A stretch of 64,000 nucleotides of DNA from Haloterrigena turkmenica DSM 5511 (lineage in GTDB: Archaea; Halobacteriota; Halobacteria; Halobacteriales; Natrialbaceae): positions 3,038,001 to 3,102,000 of the forward strand of contig NC_013743.1 in assembly GCF_000025325.1 (NCBI RefSeq), given 5' to 3'. Positions 1 to 4,383 of the stretch are shown piece by piece. The notes under the pieces were generated by a model. It did no database searches, was not told the origin of the DNA, and worked only from the letters and a program-made list of their open reading frames with translations. The translations under genes and the position numbers were made by a program. Position 1 is the first letter of the stretch. Each line of letters starts with the position of its first letter.

Positions 1-1976
1 TCGCCGGCCTCATCGCCGCGGCGCTGCTGGCGATGTGGCTTCTCCTGCCCAGCCTGTTCGACTCGATCGTCGGGAACGCGACGCGGCGCATGCTCCCGTT
101 TGGCGGAACGGCCACCGACCTCACGATTTCCGAGGCCCAACCCCCGGAGAACTTCCTCGACAGCGTCTTTAGCGAGTTCGGAAGCGCGTTCTACACGATG
201 CTCGCCGGCCTCGCTTTCATCGTCATTCGCCCGCTGTTCGGCCGCAAGATCCGCGCCGAGCACACGCTGGTCGTCGTCTGGACGCTGTTCCTGATCAGCA
301 TGGCGGCGACGCAGGTTCGCTTCTCGTACTACCTCGTGCTCGGCGTCGCGGTCGTCAACGCCGCGTTCGTCGCGGAGTTCGTTCGCCTCTTCGATCTGGA
401 CCTTCAGGCGAGCCTCGAGTCGATTCGCGGAATCGAGACCTATCAGGTGATCGTGCTTTTCCTCGTCGTGATCCTGCTGTTCGCGCCGCTACTCCCGCCG
501 ATCGCCGCCGACGATACGACCTCTTGGGAACAAGCCAATAGCACCGGCCCGTCCTACGACGCCACCATGGTCTGGGAGGGGTCGAACGAGTGGCTCGCCA
601 ACAACACGCCCGCGCCGGGCAACTGGGGCGAGCACGAAAACGCCGATCAGCTCGAGTACTTCGGATCGTACGACCGCCCCGCCGACGGGGATTACGACTA
701 TCCCGAAGGCTCCTACGGCGTGATGTCGTGGTGGGACTACGGCCACCTGATAACGACGCAGGGCGAGCGGATCCCCCACGCGAACCCGTTCCAGCAGAAC
801 GCGCCGTCCGCCTCGGCGTTCCTGACCGCCGAGTCCGAGGAACGCGGCGAACTGGTCCTCGATACCATCGCCGCCGGCGAGAACCCGGCCGACAAGTCCA
901 CCGAGGAACTCGAGTCGCTGTCCGAGGGCGCCACCCACGAGCAGATGCGGTACGTGATGGTCGACTACGAGATGGCGGCCGGGAAGTTCTCCGCGATCAC
1001 CGCGTGGTCCGGGCCGAACTACGAACACTACGTGACGCCGTCGGGCCACGAGGACGGAGAGCCGGTGAACATCAATGACTACCAGAACGGGACCATCCCC
1101 TACTACGACACGATGCAGTCCCAGCTGTACTTCGACGACGCGGACGGGCTCGAGCACTACCGGACCGTCCACGAAAACGCCGACGCTGGGACGGCGACGA
1201 TCGCCACCTACGCGAATGTGTTCGTCCCCGGCGCCATTCAGGGACAGGTCGCCCAGGAGCTGCAGGAACTGGGCTACCAGGAGGGTGACGTGATCTACTA
1301 CCAGGACGGCGAGTTCGCGGCGCCCGGCGAGGGACGTCCGTCGGTAGCGATACAGCAGATGGGATTCCAGCGGATTCAGAGCATCCAACAGAACCCGACC
1401 CAGCAGCTACTGGGCGTCCGGAGCGCCGCCGCGGTGAAGACGTTCGAACGCGTCGAGGGCGCGACGCTCACTGGCACCGTCGACGACGCAGACGACGTGC
1501 TCGGAAACGAGACGACGGCCACCGTCGAGGTCGAACTCGAGACGAACGCCGGTCGGACGTTCAACTACACGCAGGAGACCGAAGTCGCCGAGGACGGCTC
1601 GTTCGAACTGACCGTTCCCTACGCGACCAACGACGAACTCGGCGTCGAGGACGGCTACACGGACAGCGCCGTCGAAGCGACCGGCGAGTACGACGTGACC
1701 GTCGGCGAACCGGGCGAAACCGGCTACGCGGCGGAGACGGCCGTCCCCGAGACCGCAGTGGTTCAGGGCGAGACCATCACCGTCGACGGGTTCGAGCAGA
1801 CCGAACTCGAGGACCCCGACGAGTCGGAAGACGGCAACGAGACCGACGGCAACGAAACCGACGGCGGCTCGACGGACGGAAACGAAACCGACGGCGGGAA
1901 CGAAACCGACGACGGCAACCAGACCGACGGCGGCAACGAAACCGGTTCGGACGGCGCCGAAGCCGAGGACAACTAA
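1..1976 (+). CDS. aglB: Oligosaccharyltransferase AglB, C-terminal part (5' end cut by window)
   Basis: This STT3-family enzyme transfers a glycan from dolichol (pyro)phosphate to Asn in N-X-S/T sequons of S-layer and other surface proteins, on the outer face of the membrane. The reading frame is open from base 3, so the N-terminal membrane half lies outside the window. The visible part begins with the last few membrane helices and then enters the soluble domain with the family signature WWDYG (about 730-745). The C-terminus is a low-complexity Asp/Gly-rich tail with repeated NET/NQT sequons (about 1840-1950), which is unusual. A DUF368 gene follows on the same strand. The family call is firm. 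Confidence 0.95.
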   Translation, partial: AGLIAAALLAMWLLLPSLFDSIVGNATRRMLPFGGTATDLTISEAQPPENFLDSVFSEFGSAFYTMLAGLAFIVIRPLFGRKIRAEHTLVVVWTLFLISMAATQVRFSYYLVLGVAVVNAAFVAEFVRLFDLDLQASLESIRGIETYQVIVLFLVVILLFAPLLPPIAADDTTSWEQANSTGPSYDATMVWEGSNEWLANNTPAPGNWGEHENADQLEYFGSYDRPADGDYDYPEGSYGVMSWWDYGHLITTQGERIPHANPFQQNAPSASAFLTAESEERGELVLDTIAAGENPADKSTEELESLSEGATHEQMRYVMVDYEMAAGKFSAITAWSGPNYEHYVTPSGHEDGEPVNINDYQNGTIPYYDTMQSQLYFDDADGLEHYRTVHENADAGTATIATYANVFVPGAIQGQVAQELQELGYQEGDVIYYQDGEFAAPGEGRPSVAIQQMGFQRIQSIQQNPTQQLLGVRSAAAVKTFERVEGATLTGTVDDADDVLGNETTATVEVELETNAGRTFNYTQETEVAEDGSFELTVPYATNDELGVEDGYTDSAVEATGEYDVTVGEPGETGYAAETAVPETAVVQGETITVDGFEQTELEDPDESEDGNETDGNETDGGSTDGNETDGGNETDDGNQTDGGNETGSDGAEAEDN

Positions 1977-2099
1977 CGGCCAACGGATCCCCGTCGTCGC
2001 AGTCGATTTTCGATCGGAATTCGCGTCGCGCAATCCGAGCCGCCGCGGCGACCTCCGAAAGTGAGAACGCTTTTCTCCCCGTCCGAAATAGCTCCGGTA

Positions 2100-3026
2100 A
2101 TGCGGGAATTTCTCGCCGTGTACTGCAAGGGCTTCTCGATGGGCGCGGCCGACGTCGTCCCCGGCGTCTCGGGCGGGACGATCGCGCTCATCGTCGGCAT
2201 CTACGACCGGCTGATCCGCGCGATCACGGCCATCGACCCCCGGGCCTTTCGCCCGGCGCTGCGCCCCCACGATCCCGAGGCTCGAGCGCGACTCCGAGCG
2301 GAACTCGAGCGAATGGAGATCCCCTTTTTGCTATCGCTGGGACTCGGCGTCGCGACGGCGATCGTGGTCCTCTCGAGTCTCATGCACGGGGCGGCGACGA
2401 CGTATCCGGTGGCGACGTACGGCTTCTTCTTCGGGCTGATCGCCGCGTCGGCGGTCGTCCTCTACGGCGAGATCGACCGGTGGACGGCCGGCCGCGTGGC
2501 CATCTCGGTCGGCGCGATCGCGCTCGCGTTCGCGGTCTCGGGGACGACCGCGGGGAACGTGCCACACGGGCTTCCGATAGTCCTCCTCGCCGGAGCGATC
2601 GCGATCTGTGCGATGATCCTCCCCGGCGTTTCGGGCGCGTTCTTCCTCCTGATCCTCGGCCAGTACGAGTACATGACGGGGACGTTAAGCGGGTTCATCG
2701 ACGCGCTCGTCGATCTGCTCGACGGCGGCGCGCTGGCGCCCGTCCTCGAGAGCGGAACGGTCGTCGTCGTCTTCGGCGTCGGCGCGGTCGTCGGCCTGTT
2801 CACGATGGCCCACGCGGTCGGCTACGCCCTCGAGCGCTACCGGGCCGCGACGCTGGCCGCGCTGGTGAGCCTGATGGTGGGCGCGTTGCGACTGCCCGTC
2901 GAGCGCGTCTCGAGCAACCTCGGCGAGACGTCGCTCGGAACGCCCGGCGTCGCCGTCGCGATGGCGCTCGCCGGCGCCGGCGCCGTGCTGCTGGTCGACT
3001 GGCACACCGACGACCTCGAGTACTGA
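2100..3026 (+). CDS. DUF368 family membrane protein, possible polyprenyl-phosphate translocase
   Basis: This is a polytopic membrane protein of about 308 residues. It carries two related motifs, PGVSGGT near the N-terminus and PGVSGAF in the middle, as expected of the internally duplicated DUF368 fold. Bacterial DUF368 members (PopT) have been reported to move undecaprenyl phosphate back across the membrane. A matching role here, recycling dolichol phosphate released by AglB, is inference supported by the position directly downstream of aglB (123 bases). The ATG at 2100 is preferred because the conserved MREFLxxYxKG start begins there; an in-frame GTG lies at 2061. Confidence 0.85.
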   Translation: MREFLAVYCKGFSMGAADVVPGVSGGTIALIVGIYDRLIRAITAIDPRAFRPALRPHDPEARARLRAELERMEIPFLLSLGLGVATAIVVLSSLMHGAATTYPVATYGFFFGLIAASAVVLYGEIDRWTAGRVAISVGAIALAFAVSGTTAGNVPHGLPIVLLAGAIAICAMILPGVSGAFFLLILGQYEYMTGTLSGFIDALVDLLDGGALAPVLESGTVVVVFGVGAVVGLFTMAHAVGYALERYRAATLAALVSLMVGALRLPVERVSSNLGETSLGTPGVAVAMALAGAGAVLLVDWHTDDLEY

Positions 3027-3165: not shown

Positions 3166-4383
3166 TCAGGACGAGGGCGCGGTCCCGTCTCCGTCCGCGG
3201 CCTCGTCGTCGGTTTCGCCATCGGTCTCGTCGAGGCTCGGTCCGAGCGTCCGGAACGCGATCGTCGGGAACCGCACTGCGAGCGCGCTGGGGCGTCGGCC
3301 GCTCCCGGTCGCCGAGAGCGGGACGCGGTCGACGACGCCGCGGTCGGCGAGTTCGTAGAGGAACCGTTTGACGGTGCCCGCGGTCAGCGACGAACGGTCG
3401 GCGATCTCGGTCGCGAGGTCTCGAATCGGACGGTCGTCGGCGTCGATGGCGACGAGATCGAGCAGCACGCGCTGGCGGGTCTCGGACAGCGAGAGCACCC
3501 GATCGAGGTGGACGCAGTCGTCGGGAACGTCGGCTTTCGCCCGCTCGAGGTGCGCCGAAGCGATCCGGTCGCTCCCGTCCTGGCTCGCGAGGACGGCGGC
3601 GCCGAACAGGGCCGCGAGCGCGTCGTGGGCGTTCCCGTCGGCCCACGCCGCCAGCTCGCGGACGGACTCGTGATCGAGCGCGCCGGCCGCGAGCCCCGTC
3701 GACGCCCGATCGGAGACCACCTCGACGAGTTCGTGGTCGCGGTAGGCCGGGACGGTGACGGTCGGATGCTCGGCCGCCAGTTCGTCGGGGGCCTCCCGGC
3801 CGACCGCGACGGTCGAGACGCTGTCGGCGACGGGCTCGAGCAATTCGCGGGCCCGCTCGTAGGCGAGCGTCTCGGGCTCGTCGTGGTGGTCGACCGCGAC
3901 GACGGCGTGGCGGTCCGGCCGCGCGAGTTGCTGCTGGAGCCGGTCGCGGAGGTCGTCGGTCCCGACGCCGCTCTCGGGGACGGAATCGCTCGAGAGCACC
4001 GAGAGGACGGTCCGATAGAGGGCGAAGGCGCTCTCGACGCGGCGGCCGTCGACGTAGACGAACCACGTCGAGGAGCCGGTCTGACCCGCCCGGGTCGTCG
4101 TGCCGATCGACCGGGTCGATTCGCCGAGTTGCTGGTTCAACGCGTCGAAGACGGCGGTGACGATCGCGGACGTGCCCGCGCCCGCCGGGCCGACGACGGC
4201 GATCGGCGGCGGCAACTCGCCGTCGAACACCGCCTCGAGCGCGTCGAGCAACTGTTCTAAGACGGGGCCGCGACCGACCGGGTCTGCGGGGTGGACCACC
4301 GGGCTGAGGTAGTCCCGGTCGACGAGGATCTCACGGTCCTGCCGCGCCGACCGTCGCCGGGCGATGCGCTCCCGCAGCTCCAT
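3166..4383 (-). CDS. Orc1/Cdc6-like AAA+ protein with degenerate ATPase motifs
   Basis: The 405-residue protein has the layout of archaeal Orc1/Cdc6 initiators: an N-terminal lead (VDRDYLSPVVHPADPVGR), a P-loop region, an AAA+ lid and a C-terminal winged helix (about 295-380). The Walker A motif reads GPAGAGTSA, with Thr where the catalytic Lys should be, and the Walker B position reads VVAVDHHD, not hhhhDE. ATP hydrolysis is therefore doubtful. Its ATG directly follows the glpC stop codon (TAG-ATG), so it is probably the last gene of the glpABC transcript. It may be a DNA-binding regulator derived from an initiator. No origin-like repeats are seen beside it. Confidence 0.75.
   Translation of the reverse strand: MELRERIARRRSARQDREILVDRDYLSPVVHPADPVGRGPVLEQLLDALEAVFDGELPPPIAVVGPAGAGTSAIVTAVFDALNQQLGESTRSIGTTTRAGQTGSSTWFVYVDGRRVESAFALYRTVLSVLSSDSVPESGVGTDDLRDRLQQQLARPDRHAVVAVDHHDEPETLAYERARELLEPVADSVSTVAVGREAPDELAAEHPTVTVPAYRDHELVEVVSDRASTGLAAGALDHESVRELAAWADGNAHDALAALFGAAVLASQDGSDRIASAHLERAKADVPDDCVHLDRVLSLSETRQRVLLDLVAIDADDRPIRDLATEIADRSSLTAGTVKRFLYELADRGVVDRVPLSATGSGRRPSALAVRFPTIAFRTLGPSLDETDGETDDEAADGDGTAPSS

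Follow-up and report, generated by a model that had tools for sequence, protein, structure and literature searches.

In bacteria, proteins of the DUF368 family (PF04018) return undecaprenyl phosphate, and their loss raises the level of this carrier in the outer leaflet (PMC9876793; PMC12826051). VCA0040 of Vibrio cholerae and SAOUHSC_00846 of S. aureus are such DUF368/PopT undecaprenyl-phosphate translocases. A DUF368 protein of H. volcanii partly complements the Vibrio cholerae mutant lacking VCA0040, and dolichol phosphate was brought up in the same work (PMC9876793). A dolichol-phosphate role for archaeal DUF368 is therefore not wholly new. The DedA/UptA undecaprenyl-phosphate translocases (PF09335), which belong to another family, are proposed to perform the same task of carrier return. 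In H. volcanii, dolichol monophosphate serves as the carrier for N-glycans of the AglB pathway (PMC3871713), and the published agl cluster, which is described as spanning aglJ to aglM, does not name a DUF368 gene (PMC5867893). In the literature searched, we found neither a named protein for returning spent dolichol phosphate across the archaeal membrane nor a paper treating DUF368 or COG2035 together with AglB or an oligosaccharyltransferase.

The DNA analyzed here (“the window”) is a stretch of 64,000 nucleotides (G000:C1:3038001-3102000) from the 5.4 Mb genome of the haloarchaeon Haloterrigena turkmenica. An initial annotation, made from the letters of the window, had placed a DUF368 gene directly behind aglB on the same strand and had proposed its product as a translocase for carrier recycling. 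The features considered are as follows.

1 to 1976, plus strand: 3' two thirds of aglB, encoding an archaeosortase-A-type oligosaccharyltransferase (TIGR04154; AglB_L1 and AglB core-like Pfam domains; WWDYG motif).
2061 to 2099, plus strand: spacer with the promoter-like element GTGAGAACGCTTTT (2061-2074; TTTT at -29 to -26 from the ATG), found by eye.
2100 to 3026, plus strand: DUF368 (PF04018) membrane protein of 308 amino acids, candidate dolichol-phosphate translocase (Pfam, 25-sequence alignment A1, AlphaFold2).
2160 to 2174, plus strand: first PGVSG motif, residues 21-25 (P21, G22, S24 and G25 shared by 99% or more of 150 archaeal DUF368 sequences).
2622 to 2636, plus strand: second PGVSG motif, residues 175-179, the repeat counterpart of the first (P175, G176, S178 and G179 in 100% of the 150).
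G000:C1:3737412-3738212 (L004:7325-8281), minus strand: second DUF368 gene, 0.7 Mb from the first copy; it lies beyond the window and was therefore invisible to the initial annotation.

The complete aglB gene occupies G000:C1:3036980-3039976, so that its first 1020 nucleotides precede the window. The whole gene scored 930 bits with TIGR04154 (cut-off 450), and the WWDYG motif was read in the sequence. From the aglB stop at 1976 to the DUF368 start on the same strand, the gap is 123 nucleotides. The DUF368 reading frame is open from a GTG at 2061 to the stop at 3026. This GTG was considered as a start codon and rejected due to in-frame stops directly upstream of the ATG in several close relatives; for the same reason we took the ATG at 2100 as the true start, as the initial annotation had done. 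By eye, an element like GTGAGAACGCTTTT could be recognized at a similar distance before the ATG in most of the Natrialbaceae relatives listed; it is probably the leaderless haloarchaeal promoter of the DUF368 gene. In the Haloterrigena turkmenica genome, DUF368 may thus have its own promoter, while coupling to aglB is strong in many other genera.

Upstream of aglB, outside the window, are genes for glycosyltransferases and for an FkbM-type methyltransferase. Downstream of DUF368, on the other strand, a Cdc6/Orc1-like gene is followed by glpC, glpB and glpA. The Cdc6/Orc1-like AAA protein (3166-4383, minus strand) fell below NCBIfam cut-offs (80 bits versus 181 for TIGR02928) and may be a regulator instead of a replication initiator. 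In several families, its gene is again found between DUF368 and the glp genes.

The C-terminal tail of AglB (window positions 1800-1976) is dense in N-glycosylation sequons, with six in the last 70 residues, and sequon-rich tails were also seen in AglB at other loci (for example, L262, L249 and L258). The mean sequon count in the last 70 residues was 2.8 over 77 AglB proteins from haloarchaea, compared with 0.85 when tails were shuffled and 0.6 for every 70 residues in the rest of the protein; 16 of the 77 had none in the tail. AglB may glycosylate its own tail.

The product of 2100-3026 matched PF04018 at 225 bits (cut-off 26, E=1.5e-66), and this was its sole Pfam match at E values up to 10. 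The BacA/UppP pyrophosphatase is likewise a polyprenyl-phosphate membrane protein with PGxS-type motifs; unlike it, the DUF368 product had no match to BacA, nor to DedA (PF09335), in that search. The DUF368 protein of Haloterrigena salina is 93% identical. Both motifs are nearly invariant across the 150 archaeal sequences, where the second takes the form PG[VI]SG, and the N- and C-terminal halves of the protein can be aligned with each other as repeats by HHalign (probability 97.9%, E=3.2e-13). The product thus combines the two PGxSG motifs with an internally repeated membrane domain, a family criterion derived from the alignment in the present analysis.

Scores against the two NCBIfam polyprenyl-phosphate transporter equivalogs, NF052564 and NF052563, were 196 and 102 bits (cut-off 400). 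Because it falls below both cut-offs, we assigned the protein to the DUF368 family and not as an equivalog of PopT/VCA0040. It shares PF04018 with VCA0040 and SAOUHSC_00846 but differs from them in these scores, in its presumed substrate (dolichol phosphate) and in its coupling to aglB. It is also encoded in archaea, whose cells are without peptidoglycan. The AlphaFold2 model was of fair quality (mean pLDDT 81, pTM 0.73). No PDB chain was found as a solved relative by sequence, a Foldseek search of the PDB with the model returned no confident match, and the best structural score on a second look (Z 7.5, to ZIP zinc transporters) was in the uninformative range. Apart from the internal repeat, the model shows only that an all-helical membrane protein is plausible.

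A neighborhood survey had been proposed with the initial annotation as a check for linkage beyond this genome. The PF04018 and TIGR04154 profiles were both run against one set of 242 Halobacteria genomes, and weaker matches were placed by further searches. DUF368 was present in 239 of the 242. Among the matches listed, aglB and DUF368 could both be placed in 209 genomes, and these were used for the linkage count, which leaves aside the other 33. In 153 of the 209, DUF368 followed aglB on the same strand at a distance of up to 3.5 kb (“linked”). These genomes represent nine of ten families and 52 of 73 genera. Among the 209, the two genes were never found within 3.5 kb in another orientation. 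A first tally with a stricter 2 kb limit gave 143 linked genomes of 203. The pairing is far beyond chance and has been retained through deep splits; no probability is attached to the 153 of 209 because the genomes are not independent. In the other 56 genomes (about a quarter), DUF368 occurred only away from aglB, mostly as a member of a separate clade. Linkage was thereby extended well beyond the one genome in which it had been noticed, so the first half of the refuting outcome named with the initial annotation, an absence of conserved linkage elsewhere, clearly does not hold. The family, its bacterial role and the activity of one haloarchaeal protein in a bacterial host are published; the present work adds the conserved, often overlapping aglB-DUF368 pair. 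This coupling was not found in the literature searched, whose coverage did not include the second founding paper on the family (the parallel PopT work).

One Natrialbaceae genome (G118, 100% complete) has DUF368 and no canonical AglB, its best TIGR04154 match being 80 bits.

Gaps were measured at base level for 58 aglB-DUF368 loci with a gap below 1.5 kb. The median was about 58 nucleotides. In 23 of the 58 pairs the genes were separated by 20 nucleotides or less, overlaps included, and start-stop overlaps of 1 or 4 nucleotides occurred in several families. Such spacing is the signature of an operon, and we read the arrangement as operon-like in many genera. Gaps were larger in Haloterrigena and most of the other Natrialbaceae listed. 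In Haloferax-type genomes the sole genes between aglB and DUF368 are aglF and aglM. In G078, whose DUF368 groups with that of Haloferax profundi, aglB is followed by aglF, then aglM (on the opposite strand), then DUF368; in G113, aglM alone separates aglB from DUF368. AglF of G078 and AglM of G113 scored above their NCBIfam equivalog cut-offs. DUF368 in these genomes is thus beside aglB or directly past aglF/aglM. If gene order in H. volcanii matches, its DUF368 gene (HVO_RS12060) would sit directly past the aglM edge of the published cluster.

Coupling to aglB is a feature of Halobacteria. Elsewhere in the phylum, 27 sampled genomes had DUF368, and all 27 had STT3. None showed linkage of the two. 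The claim is restricted to this class because the nearest STT3 elsewhere is at least 13 kb from DUF368. The closest cases were three methanogen-side loci of one family (L213, L222 and L214). At these, STT3 belongs to the same region, at a distance of 13-14 kb, and DUF368 is near a small conserved set of genes that includes those for a 209-213 amino acid protein and a 419-429 amino acid transporter-like protein. At many methanogen loci, the neighbors of DUF368 were an NDP-sugar epimerase gene and housekeeping genes.

A tree of 132 DUF368 proteins placed linked copies in both main halves, and one clade of 36 rows had no linked member. The linked label required nine changes on this tree, versus about 40 in shuffles. 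The second Haloterrigena turkmenica protein belongs to the clade without any linked member, for which no conserved neighborhood was found and which never adjoins aglB. In Natrialbaceae, 27 of 60 genomes carry a linked copy, and ten of these 27 have a second copy as well; the remainder have one unlinked DUF368 (31 genomes) or two (2 genomes).

The best explanation of these data is that DUF368 is a dolichol-phosphate translocase that returns the carrier freed by AglB, a reading to which we assign a probability of roughly 0.77. It draws on the role of the family in bacteria, the partial complementation by the H. volcanii protein, the monophosphate chemistry and the linkage to aglB, and from these we infer its substrate, direction, use of motifs and service to the AglB pathway. 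AglB would transfer the glycan from its dolichol-monophosphate carrier and leave dolichol phosphate on the outer face. DUF368 would then bind this lipid by its phosphate head group, with the two PGxSG motifs perhaps forming the site, and carry it inward for a new round. The initial annotation had allowed for release of either dolichol phosphate or pyrophosphate. Because H. volcanii glycans are borne on the monophosphate (PMC3871713), transfer should release dolichol phosphate itself, with no phosphatase step; the first of these products was kept and the second dropped. In species with an unlinked DUF368 alone, that copy is assumed to perform the same return. Since Haloterrigena turkmenica also encodes a second DUF368 protein and four proteins with a DedA domain, the protein at 2100-3026 may not be the sole translocase in this organism.

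The chief rival is an old syntenic block, kept by descent, which might produce the same linkage while DUF368 served some other process, for example one tied to the glycerol-3-phosphate dehydrogenase genes. Among 40 linked loci picked for diversity, a GT2 gene was kept upstream in 23, and glpCBA followed downstream of DUF368 in 15-16. Of 13 loci at which aglB has been lost beside a DUF368 that is not of the all-unlinked clade, 8-9 still had the glp genes. The block is by these counts older than the pair alone, and, because glp has stayed with DUF368 after loss of aglB, part of the linkage may be inherited block structure. Retention of glp at the chosen linked loci is roughly 40%, however, versus 153 of 209 genomes for the aglB-DUF368 pair, and the glp genes are mostly opposite in strand and kilobases away, whereas 23 of 58 aglB-DUF368 pairs overlap or abut. 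The overlap and the stronger retention both speak for something beyond block structure, and a carrier-lipid role is known for the family (PMC9876793); we consider descent with an unrelated function unlikely. Transport in the other direction, with DUF368 as the outward flippase of glycan-charged dolichol phosphate for AglB, would predict an identical genomic position, and the flippase for the main H. volcanii tetrasaccharide is not named in a review of the pathway (PMC3871713). Bacterial DUF368 mutants nonetheless accumulate uncharged carrier outside, which is the opposite of what a flippase would give (PMC9876793), and the proposed flippases for charged carriers are AglR (dolichol-phosphate mannose) and Agl15 (low-salt glycan) (PMC3871713). 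An outward role is accordingly very improbable.

Another alternative is that DUF368 is a general translocase for all dolichol-phosphate glycoconjugates, conditional on salt or pH, with DedA as the main route and AglB only the largest consumer. In bacteria, the action of DUF368 proteins does depend on pH and sodium and overlaps with that of DedA (PMC9876793). DedA-domain genes were present in all 20 genomes tested (2-6 in each), and most genomes that lack a linked copy have a DUF368 of the all-unlinked clade in its place. What is kept beside aglB is nevertheless DUF368 and not DedA, which adjoined aglB in none of the 20 genomes compared (the nearest, in G010, was about 10 kb away). We regard a general translocase as possible, but lean against it. 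Somewhat more doubtful is a reading in which haloarchaeal DUF368 is a dedicated carrier-return arm for N-glycosylation, made with AglB, possibly complexed with it and taking dolichol phosphate from it directly, and the second clade supplies the general translocase.

A single genome in the survey (G021; 98% complete and fragmented) has aglB but no DUF368. It belongs to the same order as Haloterrigena turkmenica, is the only sampled member of its family, and encodes two DedA-domain proteins. If the assembly is complete enough, G021 is a natural case in which another translocase must suffice.

The tie between the oligosaccharyltransferase and a family of carrier translocases, which is class-wide and often operon-like, reduces carrier return in haloarchaea to a single-gene question in H. 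volcanii, a genetically tractable organism. If dolichol-phosphate return by DUF368 is correct, carrier recycling by this family would extend from bacterial cell-wall synthesis to archaeal protein N-glycosylation.
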